Assembly: GCF_001641755.2 (NCBI RefSeq) | Contig: NZ_LRFG02000001.1 | Coordinates: forward strand, 372,001-436,000 | Direction: 5' to 3' | Source: Microbulbifer flavimaris | GTDB taxonomy: Bacteria > Pseudomonadota > Gammaproteobacteria > Pseudomonadales > Cellvibrionaceae | Length of the DNA: 64,000 bases | Shown here: positions 48,734-64,000 of the stretch, in pieces | Layout: each line of letters starts with the position of its first letter | How positions within the stretch are numbered: position 1 is the stretch's first letter | Made by a program: the position numbers and the translations under genes | Notes under the pieces: model-generated | Seen by the model: only the letters and a program-made list of their open reading frames with translations | What the model was told of the DNA's origin: nothing | Databases searched by the model: none

Positions 48734-49741
48734 ATGAAAGGTTTCCAAGCTGAGAAAACACTGGTTCGCAAGTTCTTCGCGGAGATGGAGGCGGCGCCGG
48801 TGGATGGCGTTTCCGAAGTCTTGGGGCGCTATACCAGCGACGACTACCATCTTTACGGTGTCTACCCCTACAACGAGCTGGCCGGAGCCTCCGAGGTGGC
48901 GGAGCAGGTGTGGGCACCGCTCAAGCACTCGCTCGCGCGCATGCAGCGCCGCGAGGACGTGTTCATGGCCGGTGACAGCGAGATCGATGGTGACCGTTGG
49001 GTGATGAGTATGGGCCACTTCATGGGCCTGTTCGATGCGGACTGGTTGGGCATCCGCGCCACCCGCAAGCTGGCGATGTTGCGCTATGCCGAGTTCAACT
49101 GTGTGAAGGGCGGCAAGATTACCCGTTCCGGCCTTTGGATCGACATTATCGGCTTCATGCAGCAAGTCGGGGTCAATCCGCTGCCGCCGTCCACCGGCAA
49201 TTACTTTGTCTACCCGGGCCCCCGCAACCACGACGGCATTCTGCTCGACGAGTGCCCGCCCGAAGAGGCCACCCGGACCCTGGAGGTACTAAACCTGATG
49301 ATCGAGGACCTCAGTGGCCTCAACGTCTCGGGCAACGACCGCTGCCCACCGGATCTGCTGGCCAAGCGCTGGAGCGAGGACATGGTGTGGTACGGCCCTG
49401 CCGGTATCGGTGCATCCTATACTATCCCGCGGTACCAGGAGCAGCATCAGTACCCGTTTCGTGAGGGGCTAAAAGACAAGGTGTTCAACGGCCATGTGTG
49501 CCGCTTTGCCGAAGGCAACTTTGCCTGCTTCTTCGGTTGGCCGAACCTGTCCAATACGCCTACCGGGGGCTTCCTCGGCCTGCCCGGCGGCGAGTTGCGC
49601 GGTGACATGCGCGTAGTGGATGTGTACCGCCGGGAGGGCGGCAAGCTGGTGGAGAACTGGGTGCTGATCGATATCCCATATTGGCTGAAACAGCAGGGTC
49701 TGGATATCCTAGAGCGCACCCGATCAATCGCCAATCCCTAG
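48734..49741 (+). CDS. SnoaL/NTF2-like protein with two cystatin-fold domains (cluster copy 1)
   Basis: 335 residues from ATG at 48734, with AGGA five bases before; an earlier GTG-side extension lacks a good site. Two repeats of the SnoaL/NTF2 alpha-beta cone are visible: DDYHLYGVYPYNELAGA...YAEFNCVKGGKITRSGLWIDI and MVWYGPAGIGASYTIPRYQEQH...VYRREGGKLVENWVLIDI. Such folds act as polyketide cyclases, dehydratases or isomerases, using an Asp/His pocket. The role here is not known; it shares WYGPxGIG with copies 2 and 3. Controlled presumably by operator a. Confidence 0.82.
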   Translation: MKGFQAEKTLVRKFFAEMEAAPVDGVSEVLGRYTSDDYHLYGVYPYNELAGASEVAEQVWAPLKHSLARMQRREDVFMAGDSEIDGDRWVMSMGHFMGLFDADWLGIRATRKLAMLRYAEFNCVKGGKITRSGLWIDIIGFMQQVGVNPLPPSTGNYFVYPGPRNHDGILLDECPPEEATRTLEVLNLMIEDLSGLNVSGNDRCPPDLLAKRWSEDMVWYGPAGIGASYTIPRYQEQHQYPFREGLKDKVFNGHVCRFAEGNFACFFGWPNLSNTPTGGFLGLPGGELRGDMRVVDVYRREGGKLVENWVLIDIPYWLKQQGLDILERTRSIANP

Positions 49742-49775
49742 CGAATTCCCGATTTGCTCCCACGGGCTCCTCAGT

Positions 49776-49794
49776 GCGCGCCCTAGCGGCGCGC
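49776..49794. terminator. hairpin between two converging genes
   Basis: GCGCGCC (49776-49782) and GGCGCGC (49788-49794) with a 5-base loop; followed by CCTTATT rather than a T-run. It lies at the end of the SnoaL-like genes at 48734 (plus) and 50796 (minus), so termination on both strands is plausible but weakly supported. Confidence 0.35.
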
Positions 49795-50796
49795 CTTATT
49801 AAATTCCCGCAGGCGGGCGAAAACGTCTACGCCCAGTTGGTGGTAAACATCCAATAGGTCCACCAGAACCCAGTTTTCCCGAATCATGCCGTTTTCACAG
49901 CGCCAAAAATCCAGGCTGCGCATGGTGATTTCCCGGCCTGAAGGCGCGATACCGAGCCAGCCATCTCCGCTCACAGACATCTGCATGCCCGGCCAGGCTG
50001 TAAAACCGACATAGTCCCCATCGGCAAAGATATGGCCTTCCCCTGCATCTCCTACACGGTCGGGAAGGCCGTTGAGGAACGGGATTTGATGCCAGTTGCG
50101 AAAACCCTGGATCCCCCGACCTGTGCCGATGCCTGAGGGGCCGTACCAGCTGCACCGGGGGTGCCAATACTTATCTAGTTGCATCGCCTCCACGCCGCCA
50201 GTCGCATAGTTACCGAGGGCATCACACATGCTGTGGACCAGTTTCTGGCTGCGAGCTGCCCGGGCGGTGTCTTTTGAGTCGATGGCGAGCCCATCCTGAG
50301 TTGCTGGGCCGGGGACATGCCACTCACGCCCCAGACTTGGAGTCATCGGCCAAGCCTTCGCCTGCATCATTACTTCAGGGATGTCCCACAGCGCTTGCAC
50401 TTCGATTACCCGGCCGTTTTCAAACCGGTAGAATTCGTGAAAGCGCATGGCAACCTGATGGCCTGTGGCGGGAATGTCGAGCCAAGGTTTTTCAAAGGAA
50501 CCCGTGTAATAGCCACAGCAGCCGACCCAGTCTGCGCCAGCAGGTGTCTGACCTGCCATCACAATGGTGTCCCGGCGCTCAAGGTCGGGGATTGACTGAG
50601 CCAGGGGGCTGAGCGCTCTTTCAAACAGCTCGGCAGGGCCGGATAAGGTTTCAAAAGGATAAGCTAGCTGCACCAGAGCATCCATGGTCAGCAGTGCATC
50701 TAGCTGCTTTCTGACCTCCCTTGGCTCATAGTCGTATAGGGCAGCCCGGAGAGGGGCAAGCAGGGCCTTGTTATGTGTGTGGATGTTAGTGGGCAT
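49783..50796 (-). CDS. SnoaL/NTF2-like two-domain protein (cluster copy 2)
   Basis: 337 residues from ATG at 50796 (MPTNIHTHNKALLAPLRAAL), preceded by GGGAG at seven bases; the longer form is rejected because its leader spans the operator at 50812. The first domain has LAYPFETLSGPAELFERALSP and VQALWDIPEVM; the second has CSWYGPSGIGTGRGIQGFRN with WHQIPFLNGLPDRV and MIRENWVLVDLLDVYHQLG. It is about as similar in architecture to copies 1 and 3. The tandem NTF2 fold suggests a small-molecule lyase, isomerase or dehydratase, unproven. Confidence 0.82.
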   Translation of the reverse strand: MPTNIHTHNKALLAPLRAALYDYEPREVRKQLDALLTMDALVQLAYPFETLSGPAELFERALSPLAQSIPDLERRDTIVMAGQTPAGADWVGCCGYYTGSFEKPWLDIPATGHQVAMRFHEFYRFENGRVIEVQALWDIPEVMMQAKAWPMTPSLGREWHVPGPATQDGLAIDSKDTARAARSQKLVHSMCDALGNYATGGVEAMQLDKYWHPRCSWYGPSGIGTGRGIQGFRNWHQIPFLNGLPDRVGDAGEGHIFADGDYVGFTAWPGMQMSVSGDGWLGIAPSGREITMRSLDFWRCENGMIRENWVLVDLLDVYHQLGVDVFARLREFNKARR

Positions 50797-50811
50797 GTTG
50801 AAGCTCCCAAT

Positions 50812-50825
50812 TGAATTCGAATGCA
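50812..50825. promoter_or_regulatory. LacI-type operator b, between divergent genes
   Basis: TGAATTCGAATGCA is a perfect TG-N2-TTCGAA-N2-CA palindrome frame. It is 16 bases upstream of the minus-strand SnoaL-like start and 73 bases before the plus-strand hydrolase, so one site can serve both. Confidence 0.7.
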
Positions 50826-50897
50826 GAGGTGCTAGGATCATACCCGCTGGAGCGTCAGGGGAAAACCTTGTGAGGTTACGAATAATCGGGGAGGCGA

Positions 50898-51851
50898 GTG
50901 AGTGCGATGCTGGCGTTTAAAGGATGGGGCCCACTACTGGTGGGACTGCTTTATATTGTGAGTGCGCAAAGCGCACACGCTGCCGGTGAGGGTTTCTCCC
51001 TGAGTGAAAGGGAGCCCTCAGTCTCTGGTTTTCAGCGGCAGGTGGCAACATTTTCAGTGGATGGGTTACAGCAGCACGCGCTGTTGCTGTGGCCTGCCGG
51101 CGACGTTCCTTCCAGCGGGCACCCAGTTGTTCTTTTTGCGCATGGCTATCACCCTGATCCACCGAATTACGGGAGAATTGGGAGCGGAGAGACCTCGCGA
51201 CCGGGAGATTATTATCGGGGTTTGGTGGGCGCCTACGCAGCCGCTGGCTATGTGGTTGTGGTGCCGGATTATCGCGGTCACAACGAGTCTGCGGGCTTTG
51301 AATTCACCGAGCGATTTCTTGCCCCGCACTGGTATGCCCGGGACCTTCTGGGCGCGCTGAACGGGCTGCTCTCTCTCCAGGAAGTTGACGCTGACAGAGT
51401 GTTTGCGGTCGGCCATTCGATGGGGAGTACCGTGCTCCAGCTGGCGGCACCGCACATGGACGCGCGAGTGCGGGCGGTTTCTCTGTGGTCGACGGCCCGC
51501 CTGGATTATCGGGCCCGAATTCTGGCAAATGCTGTCAAGGCCCAGGGCGGGATGGACCGTCACTCATTGGGTAAGCCTGATCTGCGCCGCTTTGAGGAAG
51601 AGCTGCGGGCAGTGAAACCAATCGATTCCCGGGAGTTTGCTGAGCTCCAAGTGCCGGTGCTTATGCACCATGCAGAGGATGACCAGGTCACTCCGTTGGA
51701 AAATTCGCTTGTTATAGCAATGGACCGCTATTTGGCCGGTACTCCATACACGCTCCACACTTATGACTCCGACGCTCATCTCCTAAAGGGAGAGCAATTC
51801 GAGCAGGCTGTTTCTCGCGACCTGGATTTCTTCAGCGGCCTCTCTGATTAG
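50898..51851 (+). CDS. exported alpha/beta hydrolase (dienelactone-hydrolase/esterase type)
   Basis: 317 residues (GTG at 50898, or ATG at 50907 three codons later; GGGGAGG lies just before). Signal peptide LLVGLLYIVSAQSAHA. The nucleophile elbow is VGHSMGSTVL, the oxyanion region VLFAHGYHPDPPNYG, and the acid/base pair appears as LMHHAEDDQVTP with DSDAHLLKGE. It looks like a periplasmic or secreted carboxylesterase, so it may release acyl groups from the substrate outside the cytoplasm. Confidence 0.82.
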   Translation: MSAMLAFKGWGPLLVGLLYIVSAQSAHAAGEGFSLSEREPSVSGFQRQVATFSVDGLQQHALLLWPAGDVPSSGHPVVLFAHGYHPDPPNYGRIGSGETSRPGDYYRGLVGAYAAAGYVVVVPDYRGHNESAGFEFTERFLAPHWYARDLLGALNGLLSLQEVDADRVFAVGHSMGSTVLQLAAPHMDARVRAVSLWSTARLDYRARILANAVKAQGGMDRHSLGKPDLRRFEEELRAVKPIDSREFAELQVPVLMHHAEDDQVTPLENSLVIAMDRYLAGTPYTLHTYDSDAHLLKGEQFEQAVSRDLDFFSGLSD

Positions 51852-51865
51852 TATGGAGAGGCCGC
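51835..51865. terminator. convergent-gene hairpin
   Basis: GCGGCCTCTC (51835-51844) pairs perfectly with GAGAGGCCGC (51856-51865), an 11-base loop between, spanning the hydrolase stop. No T-run; termination is likely for both converging genes but not certain. Confidence 0.45.
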
Positions 51866-51880
51866 AGATCGAACTTGCAA

Positions 51881-52630
51881 CTACTGCGCGGTCCAGCCTC
51901 CGTCGACTTTAATACTGTCACCAGTGGTCAGACTGGATAAATCACTGGCAAGGTAAGTTACGGCGTTTGCGACTTCTTCTGTGTTTCCTACCCGCGCCAG
52001 CGGGATTTTACTGATTACTTCAGCGTAAAACTCTGGGTTCTCAAACATGGGGGCGGTGAGAGGTGTGCTGATAAAGGTTGGTGCGACGGAATTCACGCGG
52101 ATACCGTGGGGGGCCAGTTCAACAGCCATGGCTTTGGTTAGCCCTTCGATGGCGTGCTTGGTCATGCAGTAAACTGTGCGGTTGGCTGCACCGATATGAC
52201 CCATCTGTGATGTGATGTTGATGATTGAGCCTGCGCCGGCACGCTGCATGACTTCTGCTGCCGCTTGTGCTGACAGGAAGGCTGCACGCACGTTCAGATT
52301 GAGCATCAGGTCAAGGGTGTCTTCGCTAACCTCCGTAATTGGCATCGGCTTGTTGGTGCCGACATTGTTGACCAGGATGTCGAGGCACTTCAGGTCTCGA
52401 ATGCGACGAAGGAATTCCGGATTCGTGACGTCCATGGCCCAAGGCTCGATCCTGCCTCCGCTTTCTGCGACCAGCGTATCAAGGTCCCCTTTACTCCGCG
52501 CGACAGTGATCACATGGGCGTGACAGCTGGCCAGTGAGAGGGCGCAAGCTTTGCCGATGCCCTTGCTGGCACCGGTCACCAGTGCAGTTTTTCCGCGCAG
52601 GTCCAGAGAGGGGGCTTGGGGGTGACTCAT
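51881..52630 (-). CDS. SDR-family oxidoreductase (FabG/gluconate-dehydrogenase type)
   Basis: 249 residues. TGASKGIGKACALSLA binds NAD(P); NNVGTNKP, ITSQMGHIGA and VYCMTKHAIEG supply the catalytic Asn-Ser-Tyr-Lys; the end DSIKVDGGWTAQ is typical of sugar or polyol dehydrogenases. GGAGG lies seven bases before the ATG. The start overlaps the end of the lipoprotein gene (ATGA), so the two are co-transcribed. Probable role: oxidation of a hydroxyl of the cluster substrate. Confidence 0.9.
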   Translation of the reverse strand: MSHPQAPSLDLRGKTALVTGASKGIGKACALSLASCHAHVITVARSKGDLDTLVAESGGRIEPWAMDVTNPEFLRRIRDLKCLDILVNNVGTNKPMPITEVSEDTLDLMLNLNVRAAFLSAQAAAEVMQRAGAGSIINITSQMGHIGAANRTVYCMTKHAIEGLTKAMAVELAPHGIRVNSVAPTFISTPLTAPMFENPEFYAEVISKIPLARVGNTEEVANAVTYLASDLSSLTTGDSIKVDGGWTAQ

Positions 52631-54093
52631 GGGGTTGCCTCCGTTTTTTCCACTTGTTTAAAGTCTTTGCAGTTGCGCGCGTCAGGCCTATCGCCGTTGA
52701 ACAAAAGTGCATCTCTGGCCAGGGCGCAGGCGACGCCTGGCTGGGTTCCCGCAGGAGAGAACCAGTCATGTTGGCTCACCTTCAGGGAGTGTGTTGTTCC
52801 CGGGTACTCAAATGCATAGGCCATGCCGCCAGCTTTCAGGATGTTGTTCTGTAAGCGCTGATTCCACGCGGGGAGCGAATAGTAGTCCCGGTCAGAGAAG
52901 TGCAGGGCGAGCGGTACGGAGATGTGCTTTGCCGCGGGGTAGGCACTTACGGACGCCAGTGCGGTCGCGATCCTCGGGTCATGATCAATCTGCAGTTGGC
53001 CATTGTCGTCTCGGCTGATGGTGAAGGTCGCATCATCGATGTTGAGAACGTAGCGATTAATGGTCTCATACATCTGGCGGTATTTATCTGTGAGTGCCTT
53101 TAGCACTGTGCCCGTCGACCAGGTTTGCCGCTGCCAGGTCCACTCCGCTGGGTGCGGTGTGCCGATCCAGTCCGGCGGGAAGCCAAACACAAAGTCGGCA
53201 TTGGTGTGGCCGTTCCCGTCTGTGGCGGTGCCGTTCCAGCTGCCGTCGCCGGCGAGGAAGGCCTGTGGGCTGGCGCCCATGGGGCCAAAGGTATTGGCCT
53301 GGGTGAGCTTGTCAGGGATGTTGCCGGACCAGATGGAGGCAGCGTGGAATTGGCCGGTATTGGGATTGTCGCCGGTGATGGCAAGCGCGGTCAGCGCTGC
53401 GTCCCCGCCCTGGGAGTGGCCCAGCAGGTTGACCCGGTCGAGGTCGAGACGCGGCGTTTCGATACTGTAACTGGCCCATTCCAGAGCTGCGTAGCCGCGT
53501 AGTGCCGCCAGCAAGTTGACCAGGTCGATGGCGTAGAAGCTCGGCGACAGGTAGCTGCCGTTGTCCCAAACCTGCATGAATTCGTGGCCCTCAGCGGGGA
53601 CCCCACCCACCGTGCCGTGGCCACGAAAACCCGGGCTCAGAACCGCGAAACCGGCGCCTGTCAGCGCGGCAACGATTTCGCCGTAGAAGGAGTCGTGGTT
53701 GAGGCCAAACTGGTAACCGGGCGCGGCCTCGATGCCCACCCAGCCATGGCTGAAGATAGCAAGCGGGAAGCCTCCCTGGGGCGGTGTGCCGTGGGGGATG
53801 TCGATGCGCGTGTAGATCCTCAGACCGTCCGAATCATAACTGGCGAGCAGGGTGTCGGCGTGGGGCAGGGGGGCAGGTGCGGGCCGCTCGAGCAGTGCGA
53901 GTTTGCTCTGGTATGGGCGCGCACGCAGGCTATCGATACTGAGGTCTGCGAGGTCATCGATACACACGGCCGGGTTGCTGTGCGGACATTGGTCGTTGGC
54001 ACTTGCGTCTGGCCGCTCGCTGCGGCTGCTGTCGCCGGTGCCGCCGCAGCCGGCAGCGATCAGTACGATCACTGTCAGGAAAGCGTACTTCAT
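52627..54093 (-). CDS. lipoprotein alpha/beta hydrolase (esterase-like)
   Basis: 488 residues. The leader LTVIVLIAAGC is a lipobox with the modified Cys, so it is membrane-anchored. The esterase core shows HGWVGIEAAPGYQF, the nucleophile NLLGHSQGGDAALT, and late catalytic residues SDRDYYSLP and PGTTHSLKVS. Large insertions make it longer than typical dienelactone hydrolases. It is the first gene of the minus-strand pair with the SDR, divergent from the dehydrogenase gene across operators c and d. Confidence 0.82.
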   Translation of the reverse strand: MKYAFLTVIVLIAAGCGGTGDSSRSERPDASANDQCPHSNPAVCIDDLADLSIDSLRARPYQSKLALLERPAPAPLPHADTLLASYDSDGLRIYTRIDIPHGTPPQGGFPLAIFSHGWVGIEAAPGYQFGLNHDSFYGEIVAALTGAGFAVLSPGFRGHGTVGGVPAEGHEFMQVWDNGSYLSPSFYAIDLVNLLAALRGYAALEWASYSIETPRLDLDRVNLLGHSQGGDAALTALAITGDNPNTGQFHAASIWSGNIPDKLTQANTFGPMGASPQAFLAGDGSWNGTATDGNGHTNADFVFGFPPDWIGTPHPAEWTWQRQTWSTGTVLKALTDKYRQMYETINRYVLNIDDATFTISRDDNGQLQIDHDPRIATALASVSAYPAAKHISVPLALHFSDRDYYSLPAWNQRLQNNILKAGGMAYAFEYPGTTHSLKVSQHDWFSPAGTQPGVACALARDALLFNGDRPDARNCKDFKQVEKTEATP

Positions 54094-54202
54094 CTTATGG
54101 CCCGTTATTCTCGTTGAAATCTCTCCGCCTGCCGGGCGGTGCCCACGTTACTTCGGGGCATCATATCGCAGTGCCCGGCGAGCAGCCGACTTTGAAACAA
54201 AA

Positions 54203-54216
54203 TGATTTCGAAGTCA
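54203..54216. promoter_or_regulatory. LacI-type operator c
   Basis: TGATTTCGAAGTCA, a full TG-N2-TTCGAA-N2-CA frame. It is closer to the lipoprotein gene (start at 54093, minus strand) than operator d. Confidence 0.65.
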
Positions 54217-54292: not shown

Positions 54293-54306
54293 TGCATTCG
54301 AAGTCA
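54293..54306. promoter_or_regulatory. LacI-type operator d
   Basis: TGCATTCGAAGTCA, the consensus-like site, 58 bases before the dehydrogenase ATG at 54364. The c-d centre distance is 90 bases, which would allow looping between them. Confidence 0.7.
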
Positions 54307-54363: not shown

Positions 54364-55653
54364 ATGGCGAAGTACCTGAAACATGGCATGGATGCGGAAA
54401 CCGTACAGACGAACGACACCAAGGTGCGCGAGATCGTCGAGGGCATCCTGGGTGATATCGAAAAGCGTGGTGATGCCGCGGTGCGCGACTATTCCGGCCA
54501 GTTCGACAAGTGGGTGCCGGAGAGCTTCCGTCTGAGCGAGGAACAGATCAAGGCGTGCTACGAGCGCCTGGACAAATCCACCTTGGCGGACATCCGTTTC
54601 GCCCAGGATCAGGTACGCAACTTCGCTCAGATCCAGCGCGACTCCATGCTGGATGTCGAGCAGGAGACCCTGCCGGGCGTATTTCTGGGGCACAAGCACA
54701 TTCCCATGAACAGCGTTGGCTGCTACGTTCCGGGCGGCAAGTACCCGCTGGTGGCCTCCGCGCACATGAGTGTTGCCACCGCCAAAGTTGCAGGTGTGAA
54801 GCGAGTGATCGCTGCGGCACCGCCGTTCAATGGCGAGCCGAACCCGGCCATCGTTGTCGCCATGGATATGGCCGGCGCCGATGAAATCTATTGCTTCGGC
54901 GGCGTGCAGGCGATCGGTGCCATGGCGATCGGTACCGAAACCATTGCCCCGGTAGACATGCTGGTTGGCCCGGGCAACGCGTTTGTGGCCGAAGCCAAGC
55001 GCCAGCTGTTCGGCCGGGTAGGTATTGACCTGTTTGCTGGTCCTACCGAAACCCTGGTTATTGCCGATGACACTGTTGACGGCGAGCTGTGTGCCACTGA
55101 CTTGCTTGGCCAGGCCGAGCACGGTGTCAATTCCCCGGCGGTGCTGCTGACCAACTCCGAGAAGCTGGCACAGGATACGCTGGTGGAAATTGAGAAGCAG
55201 CTGCAGACCCTGCCTACCGCAGAAGTGGCCGGCAAGGCATGGGAAGATTATGGGCAGATCATCCTTTGTGACTCCTACGAAGAGATGGTGCAGGTGGCCG
55301 ACGAGATCGCTTCCGAGCACGTACAGGTCATGACCCGCGACCCGAACTACTTTCTCGAAAATATGACCAATTACGGGGCGCTCTTCCTGGGTGCGGAGAC
55401 TAATGTCTCCTACGGTGACAAGGTGATCGGCACGAACCACACTTTGCCAACGAAGAAAGCAGCGAGATATACTGGCGGTCTTTGGGTTGGCAAGTTCATC
55501 AAGACCTGCACCTACCAGCGCGTAACCCCTGAAGCTTCAGCCATGGTCGGTGAATACTGCTCCCGCCTGTGTGCCCTCGAAGGGTTTGCTGGCCACAAGG
55601 CGCAGGCAGACATCCGTGTTCGCCGTTATGGTAAAAAAGAAATCTCCGAATAA
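54364..55653 (+). CDS. histidinol dehydrogenase-like (HpsN/sulfopropanediol dehydrogenase-type) NAD enzyme
   Basis: 429 residues from ATG at 54364, GAGG six bases before. Motifs of the HisD fold: [78 protein letters not shown] and the [10 protein letters not shown] stretch. It is not in a his operon, and its family contains (R)-2,3-dihydroxypropane-1-sulfonate dehydrogenase (HpsN). None of the other hps genes is here, so the substrate may be another vicinal or primary alcohol oxidised in two steps to the acid. The LacI gene overlaps its end by 26 bases. Confidence 0.85.
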
Positions 55654-56677
55654 AGCATCTTCCCTGCAGGAAGCAGGTGCACATCGTGCGCGCGTGACGT
55701 CCTATGATGTTGCGGCGCACGCGGGTGTTTCCCAATCGGCGGTTTCCCGCTGTTTCAAACCTGGTGCGAGTGTGTCGAAAAAGATGCGCGACCGGGTGAT
55801 GAAGGCAGTGCAGGAGCTCGGCTACCGCCCCAATGCCATTGCACGCGGCCTGATTACAAGGCGCTCCAACATGGTCGGGGTGGTGGTTTCCAACCTGAAT
55901 TTCTACCCGGAAGTCCTGTCCGAACTCAACAAACGCTTTATTGCCCGCGGTGTACACGTGCTGCTGTTCTCCCTCGACCAGGAGAGCGATGTAGGCAGCA
56001 TTCTCGAGCAGATGTGGCAGTACCCCCTCGACGGCGTAATCGCCGCGGCGCACTTGGCGCCGGAGCAGATCGCCATGTTTGAAGAGCGCGGGGTGCCGCT
56101 GATTTTCTACAACCGTTCCTACCAGGATGTCCCGGTCAGCTCAGTGTGCTGTGACCAGACCGAGGGCGAGCGCATGCTGGTAAGCCAGCTGGCAGCCAGT
56201 AGCACGCACAAGCTGTACGGTATCGTTGCCGGTCCTAAGGATTCCGTGGTGAGTATGCAGCGTACCGAAGGAGCCAAGCAGCGACTGGCCGAGCTCGGCG
56301 TCACCGACGTGCAGGTCGTGCCAGGTGATTACACCTACGAATCCGGCCGCCGGGCGGTGTCCCGACTGGTGGAGGTGTGCGGGCGAGTTCCTGATGCCAT
56401 CGTATGTGCCAATGACATGATGGCGATGGGCTGCATGGACGAATTGCGCTTCAAGCACGACCTGGATGTGCCTGGGGATGTGTCAGTGGTGGGCTTCGAC
56501 GGTGTCAAGGCGGCGAGCTGGGCGAGCTTCAACCTCACCACTGTGGCGCAGCCGGTGGAGAGCATGGCCGAAGCGGTGGTGACCATGCTGCTGGAGCGGG
56601 TGGACAATCCGGAGATGCCCCCGGAGAAGCGCACCTTTTCCGGCGTACTGCGCGCGGGCGGTTCCATCCGGCGTTGA
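55628..56677 (+). CDS. LacI-family transcriptional regulator of the catabolic cluster
   Basis: 349 residues from ATG at 55628 inside the end of the dehydrogenase gene. The helix-turn-helix is [21 protein letters not shown] and the hinge helix [10 protein letters not shown] with the Leu that intercalates at a central CG. A periplasmic-binding-protein-like domain follows ([50 protein letters not shown]). It is the only regulator in the cluster, and the six TTCGAA-centred palindromes are its obvious candidate sites. The effector is probably the substrate or an intermediate. Confidence 0.92.
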
Positions 56678-56703
56678 TCGGTACCAACAGCGGTAAAAAA
56701 ATT

Positions 56704-57468
56704 ATGAACGAATGCATTCGAAGTACATTTGCCGGGCGCCCAGGCGGCGGGCTGCCGGTAGTGTTGCTGCCGGGCACCCTCTGTGACGGGCGTATGTGGA
56801 GGTACCAGCGCGCGGCGCTGGGTCAGCTGGCGCCGGTGCTGGTGGGCAGTATGACCGGGGCGGATTCCATGCGGGCCCTGGCCCGCGACCTGCTGGCGGA
56901 ACTACCGCCGCGCTTTGCTCTGGCCGGCTTTTCCATGGGGGGGATGGTGGCGTTGGAGGTACTGCGCCAGGCCCCGGAGCGTATCGCCGGCCTCGCACTG
57001 CTCGACACCAATTACTGGGAAGACCTGCCAGAGCGTGCCGCTGCCCGCGAGGTTCAGGTAGCGGGCGCATTGTCTGGCGGGCTCGCGAGGTTGGTGCGCG
57101 AGCAGTTGCTGCCGAATTACTTTGCTGCAGCCAATCGCGACAATCCCGCCCTCGCGCAGGAGGTGGTGGACATGGCGGAGGCAGTGGGTGAGCTGGCGTT
57201 CGCGCGTCAGGCGCGCGCGCTCGGTACCCGTAGCGAGAGCCTGGGCCTGCTGGGGGGCTTTGCCAGGCCGGCGCTGGTGCTTTGTGGGGAAGAGGATGTC
57301 CTGTGCCCGCCGCCGGCGCACGAGGCCATGGCTGAGGCGTTGCCAAGCGCGGAGCTGGTGGTGGTTCCGGATGCCGCCCACATGGCGCCCATGGAGCAGC
57401 CGCAGGTGGTGGCCGACGCCCTGTGCCGCTGGCTGGAACAAGTTTTACAAAGTGAGGTGGCGTCGTGA
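56704..57468 (+). CDS. alpha/beta hydrolase, cytoplasmic
   Basis: The nucleophile motif is LAGFSMGGMVALEVL, with VVLLPGTLCDGRMW (oxyanion side), LVLCGEEDVLCPPPAHEAM and VVPDAAHMAPMEQP (acid and His). No signal peptide. The start is uncertain: ATG at 56704 is used, but operator e (56713-56726) would then lie inside codons 4-8, and no Shine-Dalgarno is evident. An upstream ATG at 56674 overlaps the LacI gene end; a GTG at 56761 is also in frame. The stop overlaps the aldolase GTG by four bases. Confidence 0.8.
   Translation: MNECIRSTFAGRPGGGLPVVLLPGTLCDGRMWRYQRAALGQLAPVLVGSMTGADSMRALARDLLAELPPRFALAGFSMGGMVALEVLRQAPERIAGLALLDTNYWEDLPERAAAREVQVAGALSGGLARLVREQLLPNYFAAANRDNPALAQEVVDMAEAVGELAFARQARALGTRSESLGLLGGFARPALVLCGEEDVLCPPPAHEAMAEALPSAELVVVPDAAHMAPMEQPQVVADALCRWLEQVLQSEVAS
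56713..56726. promoter_or_regulatory. LacI-type operator e, at the 5' end of the hydrolase gene
   Basis: TGCATTCGAAGTAC, identical to f over 18 bases (TGCATTCGAAGTACATTT). It keeps the TTCGAA core but has AC for the last CA, so one half-site is shifted by a base. Confidence 0.6.
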
Positions 57469-58229
57469 GCCCACAACAGAATTTCAAGGAGCGGCTGGCG
57501 AGCAAGGCGCTGGTTGTCGGTACTTTCCAGAAAACCCCGTCTTCCATGGTGAGCGAGGTCCTCGGCCTGACGGACCTGGACGTAGTGTGCCTGGATGCGG
57601 AGCACTCGCCGTTTGACCGCATGGCCGTCGACCAGTGCGTGTTCGCGCTGCGTGGCGCCGGCAAGCCGTCACTGGTGCGGGTGCCGTCGACGCAGCCAGA
57701 GCACCTGCTGAACGCGCTTGATTGCGGCGCCACCGGGGTGGTGGTGCCCCACGTGACTTCTGCCGACATGGCCCGAGAGGTGGTGGCGACTAGCCACTTC
57801 GGCGCTGGCGGCCGCGGTTATGCGGGCTCCACCCGGGCAGCGGGCTATACCACCAAGCCGATGCCGGCGCACAAGCGCGATAGCGCGGCGCAAACAGTGG
57901 TGTTCGCGCAGATCGAGGATATCGAGGCGGTGGAGTGCATTGATGAGATCGCTGCGGTTCAGGGCATCGACTGCCTGTTCGTGGGGCGTATCGATCTGAC
58001 TGTGGCCTACGGGGCGGCGTCGCCGAAAGACGACGTTGTGCTCGAAGCGGTCGAGCGCATCTGTGCGGCCGGCGCCAGGCATGGCTGCCCGGTGGGCATG
58101 TTTGTCGGCGACCTGTCTGAAATTCCGCACTGGCGCGAGCGCGGCGCCAGCGTTTTCCTGCTGTCGTCCGACCACAACTTTATGCTGTCCGGGGCGGCGG
58201 CGCTGCGGGACAAAGTTGCAGGGGGCTGA
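57465..58229 (+). CDS. HpcH/HpaI-family aldolase (class II, pyruvate-type)
   Basis: 254 residues from GTG at 57465, overlapping the hydrolase stop. Motifs: VVCLDAEHSPFDRMAVDQC (metal-proximal His), VVPHVTSADMAREVV, AQIEDIEAVECIDEIA with the metal-binding Glu, and CLFVGRIDLTVAYGAAS with the metal-binding Asp. Members cleave 2-keto-3-deoxy or 4-hydroxy-2-oxo acids to pyruvate and an aldehyde. It is probably the carbon-splitting step of the pathway. No close named homologue can be assigned from sequence alone. Confidence 0.88.
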   Translation: MSPQQNFKERLASKALVVGTFQKTPSSMVSEVLGLTDLDVVCLDAEHSPFDRMAVDQCVFALRGAGKPSLVRVPSTQPEHLLNALDCGATGVVVPHVTSADMAREVVATSHFGAGGRGYAGSTRAAGYTTKPMPAHKRDSAAQTVVFAQIEDIEAVECIDEIAAVQGIDCLFVGRIDLTVAYGAASPKDDVVLEAVERICAAGARHGCPVGMFVGDLSEIPHWRERGASVFLLSSDHNFMLSGAAALRDKVAGG

Positions 58230-58278: not shown

Positions 58279-59169
58279 TCAGTGATCGATACGGTAAAAG
58301 TGAGCGGCGTTGTCGAACAGCATCTGCTGGCGCGCGGTGTCACTGGTGTGCTCCAGCAAGCTGAAGTATGCCTGCCACAGTTCGGTGTAACTGCGGTACA
58401 GCTTGTCCACCGGGAAATTGGAGCCGAACATCACCCGCTGCTGGCCAAAGCAGTCGATGACATGACGGGTGATCGGGCGCAGGCTCTCAACAGTCCAGTC
58501 CGGTTTGAACATGCCCAGCCCGGAGATCTTGCAAACCACGTTGGGCAGCAGCGCCAGCTCACGCAGTCCCGTCTTCCAAGCCTCCCAGCCACTGCCGCTT
58601 TGCTCCCAGGGGGAGCCCGCATGGCACAAGGCCACCGGTAGTTGCGGCAGGCGGCGCAGCACTCGCAGTAGAGCCGGCATCTGCTGTGGCACCATCTGCA
58701 GGTCAAAGCTGAGCCCCATTTCCATCAATGCGCCAAGGTTCTGCTGCCAGCGCGGGCTGTCCAGCAGCTGCCCGCTGCCGTTGCGAGCATCCTCGGAGCT
58801 GTGACGCCCGACAATCTGGCGGATTCCGCGCATACCGGTGAACTGCCGCTGCGCCTCGAGCTGCGCGGGCGCATCGTCCGCATCGAGATCGCAAAAGGCG
58901 ATCAGTGCGGCGGGTTGTTGCGGCAGTCGGTTGAGCCAGCGGCTTTCGGCCAGCCCATCCGCCGCGCCCACCTGCACATGCACCGAGTGGGTGGGACGGA
59001 AGCGCGCCGACTCGCCGAGGAAATCCTCCATCAGGTAGTTTTTCTGGATAGGGGTCGGATCGCCGAAAAAGCGTTGCTCGCCGCGGGCCATCAGCCAGGG
59101 GTAGTGCACCGCCTGCAAGTCCCAGAGGTGATGGTGGGCATCGATGAATTTCGGGTTATCTAGGGTCAC
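58279..59169 (-). CDS. COG3618 amidohydrolase (L-fuconolactonase / pyrone-dicarboxylate hydrolase type)
   Basis: 296 residues from GTG at 59169 with GGAGG four bases before. FIDAHHHLWDLQAV holds the HxH metal pair; LICHAG-type motif as ALCHAGSPWEQ; KISGLGMF; and VMFGSNFPVDKLYRSY with the late Asp. Known family reactions are hydrolysis of sugar 1,5-lactones and of aromatic-derived lactones. With the SDR and aldolase this fits a lactone step after sugar oxidation. It is transcribed away from the cupin gene across operator f. Confidence 0.88.
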   Translation of the reverse strand: MTLDNPKFIDAHHHLWDLQAVHYPWLMARGEQRFFGDPTPIQKNYLMEDFLGESARFRPTHSVHVQVGAADGLAESRWLNRLPQQPAALIAFCDLDADDAPAQLEAQRQFTGMRGIRQIVGRHSSEDARNGSGQLLDSPRWQQNLGALMEMGLSFDLQMVPQQMPALLRVLRRLPQLPVALCHAGSPWEQSGSGWEAWKTGLRELALLPNVVCKISGLGMFKPDWTVESLRPITRHVIDCFGQQRVMFGSNFPVDKLYRSYTELWQAYFSLLEHTSDTARQQMLFDNAAHFYRIDH

Positions 59170-59221
59170 GGGGCCTCCGTCGCAATTCCTGAGGCGCAGC
59201 TTAGCGGATTACAAAAACATC

Positions 59222-59250: not shown

Positions 59251-59322
59251 TTGCCCTGACGCAATCAGAACTGTGCGGAGACAGGCTTCGCCGCCAGAAA
59301 AATAAGATGGAGTGAACAGACG

Positions 59323-60372
59323 ATGACGAACGTTTGGACAGTGGAAAAAATGGCCGCGGAGCGGCTGGTGCGCTACCAGGAGCTGAAGCCCTGCCGCAAC
59401 GCCTTCGTGGACACCTACACTCCGGGCAGCGATCAGAAAGAGAATTTCACCATCATCGGCCCCGGTGTGGCCGAGCATCCGGACCAGCACGTGCATATCG
59501 CCGAGCCTCACGGCTTTAACATTGGCGGCGCGCGCCAGCCGAACGGCTGCCTTAACTCCCAGCACAGCCACGAGACCGAGGAAGTGTTTATCGTGCACAG
59601 TGGCCGCTGGGCGTTCCGCTGGGGCGAGTACAGTCAGGACGGTGAGGCGGTGCTCGAGGCCGGTGACTGCATCAGCATCCCGCCGCGTGTGTTCCGCGGT
59701 TTTGAAAACGTCGGCGACGGCACCGGCTACCTGTTCGCGGTGCTGGGCCGCGATGACCCGGGCCGCGTGACCTGGGCCCCGGACGTGTTCGAAAAGGCCA
59801 GGGACTACGGTCTGGTGCTGCTGGAGGATGGCCGTCTGGTGGACACTACCAAGGGTGAGAAGGTCCCGGCCGGCGTGCAGGCGATGAAGCCAACCGACCA
59901 GGAGATGATCGACGCGCACCGCCGCATGACGCTGGTGGAAATGTCCAGCTGCGTGGTGCCCTATGCGGAGCAGACCCGCTTTGCCGGCTCCGACTTGGCC
60001 GCGCAGGGTGAGGGTATGAGCGAGAGCCCGCTGATCGGCATGTCCAACCCGGAAGAGGGCATTGCAGCACCCAAGCTGGCCTGGCGTCACGGCTTTGCCC
60101 TGCGCCGTTTCGATTTTGCTCAGGGCGGCAGCACTCCGACCTATAGCCGCGCGGAAGAAGAAGTGATCTACCTGTTCCGCGGCTCCCTGACGTTTGTCTG
60201 GGATGGTGGCGAACTGGCGCTGGAAGAGGGCGATGTGCTGACCGTGCCCAAGGGGCTGGCGCGCTCCCTGGCGAGCCCGGACTGCGAGTCGGTGGCTTAT
60301 ATTGTGCGCGGTGCGGATTACCCCGCAGCGGCGGCACTGCTGCCGGTTGAAGCCGAGGCCTCGGTGGCCTGA
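59323..60372 (+). CDS. bicupin protein of unknown function, metal sites degenerate
   Basis: 349 residues. The first cupin has SQHSHETEEVFIVHSGRWAF (HxH and Glu of motif 1) but AGDCISIPPRVFRGFENVG, with Arg in the usual motif-2 His position. The second cupin (YSRAEEEVIYLFRGSLTFVW) lacks the HxH. Length and two-barrel layout recall gentisate or other ring-cleaving dioxygenases, but with one full metal His missing the dioxygenase assignment is doubtful; it could be an isomerase or binding protein. It begins the operon with copy 3 and the symporter. Confidence 0.8.
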   Translation: MTNVWTVEKMAAERLVRYQELKPCRNAFVDTYTPGSDQKENFTIIGPGVAEHPDQHVHIAEPHGFNIGGARQPNGCLNSQHSHETEEVFIVHSGRWAFRWGEYSQDGEAVLEAGDCISIPPRVFRGFENVGDGTGYLFAVLGRDDPGRVTWAPDVFEKARDYGLVLLEDGRLVDTTKGEKVPAGVQAMKPTDQEMIDAHRRMTLVEMSSCVVPYAEQTRFAGSDLAAQGEGMSESPLIGMSNPEEGIAAPKLAWRHGFALRRFDFAQGGSTPTYSRAEEEVIYLFRGSLTFVWDGGELALEEGDVLTVPKGLARSLASPDCESVAYIVRGADYPAAAALLPVEAEASVA

Positions 60373-60402
60373 TCCAAGTCCCAGACTCGCGATGTACAGA
60401 CA

Positions 60403-61398
60403 ATGCATACAACAATAACGAAATTGTACGGGGCCGCGGCAGCGGCCGCTTCCAATAATGGTGATCTCGCCAACGCGATTGTCCCGCTGCTTACCGAGGA
60501 AGCGATCTTCTGCGCGGCTCACCCGATCAATGACCTGCAGGGGCCGGTGCAGGTGGCCGAGTACTTCTTCTCGCCGCTGCTGGCAGCCATGCCGGATCTC
60601 GAGCGAAAGGAGTACATTGCGGTCCCCGGTGAGTTCCAGGGGCAGCAGTGGGTGAACGGTACTGGCTACCTCGTGGGTACCTTCGCCGCGGACCTGTTCG
60701 GTATCCCCGCCAGTGAGGCGCCGGCTTACCTTCGCTATACCGAGATGGTGCGTTTCGAGGGCGAACGGATCGCTGAATACTATGTGATCCTCGATTTCCT
60801 CGACCTGATGGTTCAGGTGGGTGTGAATCCGCTGCGCCCGGGACTCGGTTTTGCCGGCTTGGTGCCGCCGCCCACTGATAGCAGCCTTGGACTGGTGCCG
60901 GGGTCGGAGGAAGAGGGCCGGGCCAGTATCGAGCTCATCGAGGCGATGCTCGACTGCCTCGGCGGGTATGACGGCAAGTCCCTGCACAGCATGGAGCTGT
61001 CCGAGTACTGGACACCCGACTTTATGTGGTACGGGCCGGCCGGTATCGGCACCACCCGCGGCATCGACGGTTTTCGTCGCCAGCACCAGGGACCGTTTCT
61101 GCGAGCCTTCCCCGATCGGGTCGTCGATCGCAAACAGAATCTGGTCGGCTGTGGCAGCTACGCCTCCACCGGCGGCTGGCCACACATGACCGCGACGCAC
61201 AGTGGCGAGGGCTGGCTGGGCCTCGCGCCCACCGGGCGCACCATCAAGCTGCGCGTGATGGATATCTGGCGTCGCGAGGGCAGCCTGCTCAAGGAAAACT
61301 GGGTGGGGATCGATATTATTCACATGCTCAAGCAGCTGGGGCTGGATGTTTTTGAGCAGGTGAGCCAGCTGCAGGAGCGGGGGCAGCGCTATGTCTGA
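60403..61398 (+). CDS. SnoaL/NTF2-like two-domain protein (cluster copy 3)
   Basis: 331 residues. First domain AAHPINDLQGPVQVAEYFFS; second domain FMWYGPAGIGTTRGIDGFRR with QHQGPFLRAFPDRV and SLLKENWVGIDIIHMLKQLG. It is closest in motif spelling to copy 2 (GTxRGIxGFR). No strong Shine-Dalgarno precedes the ATG, so it may depend on coupling to the cupin gene. The symporter ATG overlaps its end by eight bases. The function, as for the other copies, is not known; a cyclase, dehydratase or isomerase activity is likely from the fold. Confidence 0.82.
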   Translation: MHTTITKLYGAAAAAASNNGDLANAIVPLLTEEAIFCAAHPINDLQGPVQVAEYFFSPLLAAMPDLERKEYIAVPGEFQGQQWVNGTGYLVGTFAADLFGIPASEAPAYLRYTEMVRFEGERIAEYYVILDFLDLMVQVGVNPLRPGLGFAGLVPPPTDSSLGLVPGSEEEGRASIELIEAMLDCLGGYDGKSLHSMELSEYWTPDFMWYGPAGIGTTRGIDGFRRQHQGPFLRAFPDRVVDRKQNLVGCGSYASTGGWPHMTATHSGEGWLGLAPTGRTIKLRVMDIWRREGSLLKENWVGIDIIHMLKQLGLDVFEQVSQLQERGQRYV

Positions 61399-63001
61399 AT
61401 TTGGTTTACTCAACTGGGTAGTGCTTAGTGCCTACCTTGCGGTCAGCATCGGCATCGGTGCCGCGATGGGCCGCAAAGTGCATTCTTCGCAGGAGTTCTT
61501 CCTCGGTGACCGCAGCATCCCCTGGTGGGCGATTGGCATCTCCGTGGTCAGCACTTACGTCAGCGCCCTTACATTCCTCGGCGGGCCGGCCTGGGCCTAC
61601 ACCGATGGCCTGTCGGTGATGGCGATTCACCTGAACTACCCGCTGGTCATTTTCCTCGTGATCTGTTTCTTCCTGCCGTTTTTCTACAACAGCGGCGTGG
61701 CCTCTATTTACGAGTATCAGGAAAAGCGCTTTGGGCCCGCTTCCCGCTGTGTCATGGCGGGTGTATTCCTGATTTCGCAGACCCTGACCACTGCAGCGGT
61801 GCTCTATGCGACTTCGCTGGTGCTGGAGTTCATCACCGGCGTGCCGGTGGAGACCTGCATCGTGATTGTTACAGTGGCAGCGCTGCTCTATACCATGATG
61901 GGCGGTATCGCGGCGGTGATCTGGACCGATGTGCTGCAGGCCGCGATCCTGTTTATCGGCGCTTTCATCATTGTGTTTCAGCTGTTGGACGAGATGCCGG
62001 TGCCCCTGACTACCGCGCTGTTCGAGCTGAAAGGGCAGGGGATGACCAATGCCATCGTCACCGATCTGGATTTCTCCAACGTGACCACGGTCTGGTCCGG
62101 TGTGATTGCCATGACACTGTTCCACGTGACCATCTACGGTGCCAACCAGATGATGGTGCAGCGCACCCTGGCGGCGAAGAACATCGGTGATGCCAAGAAG
62201 TCGTTCATGATGATGGGCTACGGTGCCTTCTTCATCTACTTCCTGTTTATCTCCCTCGGTGTGTTGTTCTACTTTTTTTACCAGGGCAGGGAATTCGAGA
62301 ACGGCAACACCATCATCCTGCAGTTTGCGGCGGAGTATGGTTTTCCTGGCTTGATGGGCCTGATTGCGGCGGCAGTGCTGGCAGCCAGCATGTCGAGCCT
62401 CGACTCGGCGCTGAACTCCATGTCGACGGTTTCCACGCTGGATTTCTACAAGCGCTTTTTCCGCAAGGATGCGGACGATCGGCACTATCTGGTGGTGTCG
62501 CGCCTGTTTACCATTTTCTGGGCGGCGCTGATCATCATTCCGGCGATGATGTTTGCCTCGAGCAGCGGCAGTATCCTCGAGATTTTGAGTAAACTCGGCT
62601 CCTACTTCGTGGGTGCCAAGCTCAGTATGTTTGCCCTGGGCTTCTTCACCAAGAACACCACCGAACGCGGCCTACTGGTGGGCGTTGCGGTGGGCTTCGC
62701 GGTGCTGATCTACGTGGCCAACTTTACCGACGTGGCCTGGCCCTGGTATGCCGCTATTGGTGGGGTGGTGAACATGGTGGTTTCCTATGTGGCCAGCCGC
62801 GTCCTCGATGGCACCCAGGCGGAATACTCTGAGTACACCATCGCCGGCCAGAAGAAACTGTTCGCCGAGAGCGGCCGCGCGGAAAAAGAAGGCAACTGGT
62901 ATGTACTGCCAGGGAGGGTCGACCGCCAGGCATACGGGTTGCTGGTGTTCTTCGCCCTTTCGGTCGCCTTCCTAGTGTTGTTTAACCAGGCCATTTCCTG
63001 A
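61391..63001 (+). CDS. sodium/solute symporter (SSS family)
   Basis: 536 residues, about 13 membrane segments. Family signatures: the first helix block YLAVSIGIGAAMGRKVHSSQEFFLGDRSIPWW, ISVVSTYVSALTFLGGPAWAYTDG, YEYQEKRFGP, GGIAAVIWTDVLQAAILF, and AAVLAASMSSLDSALNSMSTV, which holds the Na-site Ser/Asp residues. Relatives carry sugars, sialic acid, proline or carboxylates; the motif set is of the sugar/organic-acid branch, but the substrate cannot be read from it. It should bring the cluster substrate across the inner membrane. Confidence 0.92.
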   Translation: MSEFGLLNWVVLSAYLAVSIGIGAAMGRKVHSSQEFFLGDRSIPWWAIGISVVSTYVSALTFLGGPAWAYTDGLSVMAIHLNYPLVIFLVICFFLPFFYNSGVASIYEYQEKRFGPASRCVMAGVFLISQTLTTAAVLYATSLVLEFITGVPVETCIVIVTVAALLYTMMGGIAAVIWTDVLQAAILFIGAFIIVFQLLDEMPVPLTTALFELKGQGMTNAIVTDLDFSNVTTVWSGVIAMTLFHVTIYGANQMMVQRTLAAKNIGDAKKSFMMMGYGAFFIYFLFISLGVLFYFFYQGREFENGNTIILQFAAEYGFPGLMGLIAAAVLAASMSSLDSALNSMSTVSTLDFYKRFFRKDADDRHYLVVSRLFTIFWAALIIIPAMMFASSSGSILEILSKLGSYFVGAKLSMFALGFFTKNTTERGLLVGVAVGFAVLIYVANFTDVAWPWYAAIGGVVNMVVSYVASRVLDGTQAEYSEYTIAGQKKLFAESGRAEKEGNWYVLPGRVDRQAYGLLVFFALSVAFLVLFNQAIS

Positions 63002-63011
63002 AATTGATTTT

Positions 63012-63041
63012 GCGGGGGCACCCGGTGGTGTACCCGCTTTT
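63012..63041 (+). other. hairpin between symporter and last gene
   Basis: GCGGGGGCAC and GTGTACCCGC pair with one mismatch and one wobble, followed by only four T. It may attenuate or protect mRNA rather than fully terminate. Confidence 0.35.
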
Positions 63042-63059
63042 GTGGAGTTCGTTCAAGCC

Positions 63060-64000
63060 ATGAAAGACTATTTTGACAATGCGCCCGCCAAGGGGCCCGA
63101 AGGCGACCTACGTGGATTCGACCCGGAATTCACCGACATCGTCGATTACATCCTGCGTATTACCTACCGTATCTGGGAGGGCAAGCAGGTTGGCCTGTGC
63201 CACGACTACTACTCGGAAGACTGCCCGGTATATACCCTGGGCGGTTATGTGGAGGGCGCCGAGGCAGTGATGCAGAACACCCTCAAGACCCTGTCTGGTT
63301 ACCCGGATCGCACTTTGCACGCGGACAACATCATCTGGGGTGGCGACGATGAGACCGGGTACCACTCCTCGCACCTGATCTGCTCTAACATGACCAATTT
63401 GGGACCGAACGAATTCGGCCCGGCCACTGGCAAGCGGGTGCAAATCCAGGTGATCGCGCACTGCGTGTGCAAAGGCAACAAGATTGTCGAGGAGTGGTTG
63501 GTGCGCGATAACTATTCACTGGCTGAACAGCTGGGCTACGAGCCATTGGAAGTGGCCAGCGAACTGGCGCAGAAGCCGCTGGACCCATCCGGTAAGTTTG
63601 CCAAGTGGCTGGTCAGCGAGCACAAGCGCGTTTCCGCTAGCGGCCGCGAGCGTGTGGCCTATCCGTCCGTGGCGGAGGACCGCGCCGCCTTCATCGAGAC
63701 TGCGCTGCACAATATCTGGAATGCGCGCATGCTCGGTGACTGCAATCTCGTGTATGCGGAGAATGCTCGCCTGCACGCCTCGGCCCGCGATGACCTCGAG
63801 GGCGTGACCAATATCTCCCGTTTCTACATGGAAATCCTCGGTGCCATGCCGGATGCGAAGATTTCTGCGGATTACAGTTGTGTGAATTCCATGAACGACA
63901 GCGACCCGCACGCGGCGGTGCGATGGGTGATCGCCGGCCACCACACCGGCAACGGCCGCTGGGGCGAGGCAACTGGTACGCCGCTGGTGATCCTGGGAGA
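63060..64000 (+). CDS. SnoaL/NTF2-like protein (cluster copy 4), 3' end outside the window
   Basis: Open from ATG at 63060 to the window end, 313 codons with no stop, so it continues beyond. The start reads MKDYFDNAPAKGPEGDLRGF, then YILRITYRIWEGKQVGLCHDYY, GGYVEGAEAVMQNTLKTLSGYP, WLVRDNYSLAEQLGYE, and a second domain ALHNIWNARMLGDCNLVYAENA with FYMEILGAMPDAKISADY. This is the SnoaL/ester-cyclase type of NTF2 fold, but it lacks WYGPxGIG in the visible part, so it is a distinct subtype. It follows the symporter by 58 bases on the same strand and is probably in that operon. Confidence 0.8.
   Translation, partial: MKDYFDNAPAKGPEGDLRGFDPEFTDIVDYILRITYRIWEGKQVGLCHDYYSEDCPVYTLGGYVEGAEAVMQNTLKTLSGYPDRTLHADNIIWGGDDETGYHSSHLICSNMTNLGPNEFGPATGKRVQIQVIAHCVCKGNKIVEEWLVRDNYSLAEQLGYEPLEVASELAQKPLDPSGKFAKWLVSEHKRVSASGRERVAYPSVAEDRAAFIETALHNIWNARMLGDCNLVYAENARLHASARDDLEGVTNISRFYMEILGAMPDAKISADYSCVNSMNDSDPHAAVRWVIAGHHTGNGRWGEATGTPLVILG

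Follow-up and report, generated by a model that had tools for sequence, protein, structure and literature searches.

Introduction

Algae, cyanobacteria, and corals widely use mycosporine-like amino acids (MAAs) as UV screens, and the MAA ring carries a CH2OH group beside a tertiary hydroxyl. In the available part of a review, these compounds are described as having a cyclohexenone chromophore with methoxyl substituents and glycine subunits, and hydroxyamino acids are found on shinorine and porphyra-334 (PMC3083659). In the same part, Vibrio harveyi is suggested to hydrolyse serine or threonine off these two compounds, leaving mycosporine-glycine (PMC3083659). No description of genes for MAA breakdown was found in the literature searched, most subscription journals lying outside the search. 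The present study concerns a catabolic gene cluster that fills the last ~15 kb of a stretch of 64,000 nucleotides from Microbulbifer flavimaris (contig NZ_LRFG02000001.1, positions 372,001 to 436,000; hereafter the window). We put a shade below even the chance that this cluster is an island under LacI control for the catabolism of MAAs or closely related cyclohexenones.

Several described systems resemble parts of the cluster. NTF2-like cones are the fold of SnoaL-like polyketide cyclases (SnoaL, SnoaL2, AclR, IdmH), and two such cones form the polyether epoxide hydrolases Lsd19 and MonBI/MonBII. Cupin dioxygenases that cleave rings or diketones have a metal site of three His, or of three His and one Glu, and class II aldolases of the HpcH/HpaI type use a catalytic His and Arg with a metal-binding Glu and Asp. 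In the lower pathway of protocatechuate 4,5-cleavage, LigI acts together with an aldolase for 4-carboxy-4-hydroxy-2-oxoadipate (CHA) and 4-hydroxy-4-methyl-2-oxoglutarate (HMG), which belongs to the RraA family and has the motif G-X20-R-D/E-X2-E/D. Zinc methyltransferases of the MetE type show the pattern HxC, Glu, Cys. Finally, HpsN, the R-2,3-dihydroxypropane-1-sulfonate (R-DHPS) 3-dehydrogenase, oxidises a CH2OH group beside C-OH to the acid; its motif is G-R-Y-A/S-H, of which the His binds sulfonate, and that of HisD is G-S-A-P-L (PMC11382572, in the part available). The part of another article on DHPS that was available mentions neither SnoaL nor ester cyclase (PMC11131964).

A Recurrent Gene Set Behind a Shared Operator

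Every gene that a sequence-only reading of the window had named is present in this segment, namely those of four SnoaL-type proteins (S1 to S4), a HisD-type dehydrogenase, a short-chain dehydrogenase/reductase (SDR), a COG3618-type amidohydrolase/lactonase (AmdH), an HpcH/HpaI-type aldolase, a bicupin, three hydrolases (ABH1 to ABH3), and an SSS-family sodium/solute symporter. A LacI-family regulator is also encoded (55628..56677, plus strand; the open reading frame (ORF) opens at 55550 and the start was chosen by eye). A palindrome with a CG centre, as is typical of LacI operators, is found 5' of S1 (TGACTTCGAATGCA, 48658..48671), as an operator-like site in the divergent promoter of S2 and ABH1 (TGAATTCGAATGCA, 50812..50825), and twice 5' of the HisD-type gene (TGATTTCGAAGTCA, 54203..54216, and TGCATTCGAAGTCA, 54293..54306).

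The operator pattern has 48 matches in 1.85 Mb, of which 44 lie within 350 bp upstream of a cluster gene, and 0.4 matches are expected per shuffled set, the shuffle preserving single-base composition only. The pattern was drawn from the window and its first relatives. The test is circular in part, and much of its weight comes from close relatives (Colwellia). After removal of four duplicates (G139 is the genome of locus L049), 40 of 44 distinct sites are upstream of cluster genes; they precede S1, the symporter, HisD, SDR, S2, S3, S4, and others. Because the LacI-type palindrome recurs in this manner, the cluster looks like one regulon. The sites belong to gammaproteobacterial loci, plus one in L044 (Acidobacteria by its title) that is not ahead of a cluster gene; the search for operators did not extend to other phyla.

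The same gene set was sought in other genomes with S1 as query. The 91 loci compared are the best 80 of at least 518 confirmed S1 relatives (at least 592 stretches) in genome contigs, together with 11 plasmid stretches. Locus counts thus describe the closest S1 relatives, and the set over-represents S1-bearing loci because all of them were gathered through S1. Gene presence was scored by tblastn, and absences are soft because many loci are short or cut. S1 was scored in 90 loci, S4 in 53, the LacI regulator in 47, the symporter in 37, S2 in 30, HisD in 29, the bicupin and SDR in 28 each, ABH3 in 23, an ABC binding protein in 22, the HpcH/HpaI aldolase in 21, AmdH and a carrier of the major facilitator superfamily (MFS) in 18 each, a MetE-like gene in 16, a TonB receptor in 13, S3 in 12, an RraA-like gene in 10, and SdaA in 8. 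S1 also matches 23 plasmid records, and S3 has matches in 7 of 274 genomes of the class, that of the window included. Judged by record titles, most hosts are gammaproteobacteria; the remainder include roseobacters, SAR324, Chloroflexota, clostridia, spirochaetes, and desulfobacteria. S1 is ~65% identical between the window and clostridia. Since the same set recurs across phyla and shares an operator, the grouping is not due to chance, and the claim of a coherent catabolic cluster holds.

The single locus where S1 falls short of the threshold is that of Halobellus. On a plasmid of the saltern archaeon Halobellus limi, an archaeal variant (L041:12590-18983) has four ester-cyclase (SnoaL) genes of ~330 amino acids in a row and a fifth, short one, along with a MetE-like protein, an ABC carrier, and a protein of the aminomethyltransferase family.

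Full and Minimal Forms of the Cluster

A full form, defined by HisD and the bicupin, is seen in 22 of the 91 loci, usually with S4, SDR, LacI, and an aldolase. Among these 22 clusters, LacI is present in 22, S4 and an aldolase of either type in 21 each, SDR and either the symporter or an ABC binding protein in 20 each, S2 or S3 in 19, ABH3 in 18, and AmdH and the MetE-like gene in 11 each. Full clusters are also carried on plasmids of Ruegeria, Paracoccus, and Octadecabacter.

A minimal form made up of S1 and an MFS carrier is seen in 18 of the 91 loci, from vibrios and anaerobes, with the symporter in 16 and S4 in 10 of them; the ten loci with S4 belong to clostridia and other Bacillota, Brachyspira, and Propionigenium. 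None of the 18 has HisD, bicupin, S2, S3, MetE-like gene, aldolase, or ABC binding protein by tblastn, and none has SDR, AmdH, or ABH3 at the thresholds used; in L061 and L062, both from vibrios, a looser clustering of ORFs does place an SDR relative nearby. Because S1 and the MFS carrier occur there without HisD, SDR, AmdH, ABH3, bicupin, and aldolase, S1 is more likely to be an entry enzyme of the pathway. On the S1 tree (ORFs of 320-360 amino acids, 79 rows, duplicates included), the MFS loci form nearly one clade, and the label needs two changes; a Fisher test (p 1.3e-5, 86 loci) was set aside as proof, as related loci are not independent. Within this clade, the aerobe Rossellomorea aquimaris, whose placement depends on forks without firm support, and Vibrio pelagius have other genes and no MFS gene in the sequence covered. 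At E 1e-10, S4 is absent from three of the six vibrio genomes searched.

The SnoaL-Type Proteins

S1 (48734..49741, plus strand), the query of the survey, is encoded in an ORF at 48710-49741 and likely starts at 48734. S2 (49783..50841, minus strand) likely starts near 50796, judged by eye. S3 (60403..61398) and S4 (63042..64000, ending at 64118 past the window) are on the plus strand, and S4, completed from the contig, has 358 residues. All four match Pfam SnoaL above the curated cut-off. AlphaFold2 models of S1 (pLDDT 93.3, pTM 0.91, 54 alignment rows) and S4 (pLDDT 93.4, pTM 0.90, 36 rows) have a secondary structure that repeats twice along the chain, and in Foldseek both match single SnoaL-type cones, so that by Pfam for all four and by models and Foldseek for S1 and S4 these are NTF2-like cones. 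The models of S1 and S4 are confident and have two NTF2/SnoaL cones per chain. The initial description of four two-cone proteins of about 310-337 residues is borne out, for S1 and S4 by confident models, except that their sizes are 331-358 residues as ORFs.

The cones resemble those of the SnoaL-like polyketide cyclases by Pfam and Foldseek; unlike these cyclases, the cluster proteins have two cones per chain and a catabolic setting. The best full-length Foldseek matches of S1 are the two-cone proteins Lsd19 and MonBI/MonBII, with 9-13% identity and a root-mean-square deviation of 16-18 A over the whole chain. These matches give two-cone chains a precedent, but a biosynthetic one. By sequence, S3 and S4 match single-cone SnoaL-type chains alone, weakly, and no NCBIfam model matches S1, S3, or S4.

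In a half-against-half profile comparison, the two halves of S4 match each other at E 7e-27 and the halves of S1 to S3 at best at E 1.7e-13. This suggests that S1, S2, and S3 share one old internal duplication and that S4 comes from a separate one. Both halves of S1 have the aspartate of an E.W...D motif, which may correspond to the catalytic aspartate of SnoaL; D145 and D321 are invariant in 54 rows. S1 conservation was assessed on ORFs of 300-400 amino acids (86 rows, duplicates included).

The HisD-Type Dehydrogenase and Candidates for Ring Cleavage

The HisD-type gene (54364..55653, plus strand) encodes a HisD-fold dehydrogenase that keeps the zinc-binding and catalytic residues and whose nearest solved structure is HpsN of Cupriavidus pinatubonensis (PDB 8v35, E 2.5e-120). 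As in the HisD/HpsN superfamily, Q250, H253, D352, H411, E318, and H319 are present in all 27 aligned rows (23 distinct), and the positions of the zinc ligands and of the catalytic Glu, His, Asp, and Lys are shared with HpsN. Unlike HpsN, the cluster enzyme has the motif G-K-Y/F-P-L/M and lacks the sulfonate-binding His: the His126 position is Leu or Met in every row. The motif site reads K/R-Y/F-P-L/M throughout, with Lys in 26 rows, and Lys/Arg and Tyr/Phe stand in place of the Ser and Ala of the histidinol dehydrogenase motif G-S-A-P-L. The enzyme represents a third subfamily, which likely acts on a non-sulfonated HOCH2-C(OH) group. In public annotation, the cluster dehydrogenase of L038, L039, L126, and L127 is named hisD or histidinol dehydrogenase, and three of these four carry a Gene Ontology term for histidine biosynthesis; the label finds no support in the motif of the aligned relatives.

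The bicupin (59323..60372, plus strand) has H81, H83, and E87 in 24 of 24 rows, Phe127 replaces the usual third metal-binding His in all of them, and domain 2 has no conserved His. A gentisate- or quercetinase-like enzyme was rejected, as the metal site misfits and matches to solved structures are weak (best E 0.006). ABH3 (56704..57468, plus strand) is a PcaD-like alpha/beta hydrolase with S77, D198, and H226 conserved. It is followed by the HpcH/HpaI-type aldolase (57465..58229, plus strand), in which H47, R72, E151, and D177, the class II residues, are kept in at least 97% of 24 rows.

AmdH (58279..59169, minus strand) resembles, as a COG3618 protein, the lower pathway of protocatechuate 4,5-cleavage, and RraA-like aldolases occur in 10 of the 91 loci. 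Unlike in that pathway, no ring dioxygenase of the LigAB type was seen and the RraA motif is partly kept: R172-D173 is found in 8 of 8 distinct rows and the last acidic residue in 4 of 8, with a spacing longer by one.

Genes for Methyl Transfer and for Serine and Glycine

The MetE-like gene of 16 loci has a Pfam Meth_synt_2 match, and its zinc site (H246, C248, E280, C346) is kept in 18 of 18 rows, 16 of them distinct. The HxC...E...C pattern is common to the catalytic domain of MetE methionine synthase; unlike MetE, the cluster gene has a catabolic setting, and NCBIfam methionine-synthase models are far below cut-off. In L058, L083, and L089, presumed anaerobes by title, proteins of the URO-D family are found instead, with B12-binding domains in two loci and a pterin-binding protein in one; given these partners, the URO-D-family proteins are probably methyltransferases. 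That related clusters have two methyl-transfer systems unrelated to each other suggests that the substrate carries a methyl group.

Beyond the window, on the same contig, Pfam identifies a TonB-dependent receptor, a TPR-sulfotransferase, a LysR regulator, serine hydroxymethyltransferase (SHMT), the L-serine dehydratase SdaA, and GcvT; GcvP, named from its translation, lies downstream too, and a 128-codon ORF separates GcvT and GcvP. SHMT and SdaA are taken as a dedicated serine/glycine unit because each has a second copy elsewhere in the genome (SHMT, 69%; SdaA, 57%). An operator-like site with one mismatch, past GcvP and near a second pair of TPR-sulfotransferase and TonB receptor genes, hints that this unit is part of the island, but the SHMT promoter itself showed no operator. 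Both TPR-sulfotransferase genes (L003:5992-7857 and L003:16084-18027) adjoin a TonB-dependent receptor gene, and together they flank the serine/glycine operon.

Separate serine/glycine arrangements are found in vibrio contigs, one V. pelagius plasmid, HTCC2148, and the genome of the window. For 26 loci with genomes searched, SdaA was seen in 6 vs. an estimated 0.2 expected (~44 genes in ~123 Mb), and five of these six are related vibrios. SdaA directly adjoins the symporter gene in six vibrio sequences (five genome contigs and one plasmid). In HTCC2148, an operator site lies between S4 and SdaA, and this SdaA-family gene is the only one of the genome. The Kineobactrum locus has GcvP at its edge. 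Both V. pelagius clusters (L037:1-7000 and L129:1-7000), which lie on plasmids, are adjoined by a four-subunit sarcosine oxidase and PurU, and an L-serine ammonia-lyase stands beside that of L129.

A Possible Route for MAA Breakdown and Its Alternatives

The substrate was assigned by elimination and fit, with about an even chance of being right, and the route would run as follows. After uptake by the TonB receptor and the symporter (61391..63001, plus strand) or a sugar-type ABC carrier, S1 would be the first enzyme, hydrolysing a C-N bond to release serine or threonine from the ring, and S4 would then hydrolyse the C-N bond of glycine to give 4-deoxygadusol. The freed serine and glycine would go to SdaA and to the SHMT and Gcv gene products. 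In aerobes, the HisD-type enzyme would convert the CH2OH beside the tertiary OH into a carboxylate, and the methyl ether would be removed by the MetE-like enzyme, or by corrinoid enzymes in anaerobes. The ring would be opened by the bicupin and/or the PcaD-like hydrolase, the latter with its conserved S77, D198, and H226 possibly opening a diketone hydrolytically instead, and the HpcH/HpaI or RraA-type aldolase would cleave a 4-hydroxy-2-oxo acid. On paper, CHA would arise if the demethylated, carboxylated ring were cleaved oxidatively between C1 and C2, and it would then split to pyruvate and oxaloacetate. CHA, a substrate of RraA-type aldolases, is the intermediate that this proposed end would have in common with protocatechuate 4,5-cleavage. 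Vibrios and fermenters would lack ring degradation and export the stripped ring by the MFS carrier.

Palythine, an MAA, takes its name from the genus Palythoa. Vibrio variabilis and V. maritimus, which both carry the minimal form, were isolated from the zoanthid Palythoa caribaeorum, as far as the available part of the source tells. S1, the symporter, SdaA, and a possible MFS exporter in vibrios could be what a conversion of the V. harveyi type needs. The available part of the review also names one MAA as the principal one in a cyanobacterium from a hypersaline saltern pond (PMC3083659).

A number of observations weigh against an MAA route. The evidence is genomic and indirect, and no gene ties the cluster directly to MAAs; we know of no NTF2-fold enzyme that hydrolyses an enaminone or imine, and the hosts include gut and soil bacteria, where the supply of MAAs is less obvious. 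At E 1e-5, the genome of the window has no MetE-like gene, which leaves methyl removal there unexplained, and only 11 of 22 full clusters have one. Oxidative ring opening is weakly supported, because the bicupin, with no third His to complete the 3-His or 3-His-1-Glu site of known cupin dioxygenases, is unlikely to be a standard dioxygenase. The exclusion between MFS and ring genes does not amount to 18 independent cases, since about two changes on the S1 tree account for it; the export direction of the carrier is assumed, and three of six vibrio genomes have a distant S4 elsewhere. Finally, the sarcosine oxidase of V. pelagius points to N-methylglycine, which common MAAs are, to our knowledge, not known to release.

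This last point bears on the alternative that survives best, though we consider it unlikely: the substrate would be another methylated compound containing glycine, sarcosine, or serine (an N-methylated amino-acid conjugate, a methylated aminocyclitol, or a betaine derivative), from which SnoaL-type enzymes would again set free the amino acid, with the later steps as proposed for MAAs. The sarcosine oxidase and PurU at both V. pelagius clusters and the serine ammonia-lyase at one, the creatininase-family proteins in clusters of presumed anaerobes, and the gut and soil hosts would all suit such a compound. However, it would have to be widespread in the sea and also have CH2OH beside C-OH, and no such compound has been named; moreover, among the contexts annotated, N-methyl enzymes are seen only in those of V. 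pelagius.

The sequence-only reading had suggested a non-phosphorylative route for deoxy-sugars or uronates, in which a dehydrogenase, a lactonase, a SnoaL-type dehydratase, and an aldolase would act in turn. The SDR (51881..52630, minus strand), the LacI regulator, and the sugar-type ABC carriers would agree with it, as would AmdH, nearest to an L-fuconolactonase model, and the GarL-like aldolase, both below cut-off. As that reading had stated for the window, no conventional dehydratase is near: there is none among the ten downstream and in-window proteins run against Pfam, enolase-type genes lie ~79 kb past the end of the window and ~147 kb before the cluster, and IlvD-type genes are on another contig only. 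Yet S1 is present, with the MFS carrier, in 18 of 91 loci that have none of these steps; only 11 of the 22 full clusters have AmdH, although cut loci may account for part of this; and the dehydrogenase nearest to HpsN, the methyltransferases, and the serine/glycine genes that accompany many clusters are left unexplained. The aldolase, amidohydrolase, and dehydrogenase families also serve outside deoxy-sugar pathways. With no dehydratase near and S1 independent of the other steps, this route was dropped as the leading explanation and appears improbable. A sulfonate pathway (DHPS or sulfosugar), which the HpsN match would favor, is rejected as very improbable given the Leu or Met at the sulfonate-binding position and the lack of a sulfolyase among the genes run against Pfam.

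If the cluster does serve MAA breakdown, what becomes of a large amount of organic matter in the sea could be followed with named genes, S1 as a marker protein, the operator, and a simple assay. A broader proposal, on the doubtful side in our estimation, is that S1 and S4 would be a new class of enaminone/imine hydrolases which, with the HisD/MetE/cupin/aldolase module, would make up a complete, horizontally spread marine pathway of MAA mineralisation; the minimal form, in vibrios and fermenting gut or sediment bacteria, would take the amino acids only and release the antioxidant 4-deoxygadusol or mycosporine-glycine. Even with another substrate, the cluster defines an undescribed catabolic regulon that is carried in part on plasmids and occurs in several phyla and, as a variant, in one archaeon. 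Its core enzyme families are uncharacterised, and its HisD-type subfamily is publicly annotated as histidinol dehydrogenase. In agreement with the initial statement that no characterised pathway has this gene set, none was found described in the literature searched.

Other Features of the Locus

ABH1 (50898..51851, plus strand) is an alpha/beta hydrolase whose N-terminus resembles, by eye, a signal peptide. ABH2 (52627..54093, minus strand) is alpha/beta hydrolase-like, with a Pfam match below cut-off and an N-terminus that resembles, by eye, a lipoprotein signal. Just ahead of the cluster, a tRNA-Pro gene is found at 48009-48085; integration of an island at this gene was considered and rejected, as no 15-base piece of the tRNA is repeated downstream in the window, in L003, or in L004. 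The presumed anaerobes of L058, L083, L089, and L105 share fucose-isomerase-like and creatininase-family proteins that have no obvious role. A sulfatase gene lies inside the cluster of G167 (L027:673-2955), and sulfated MAAs are named in the available part of the review (PMC3083659).

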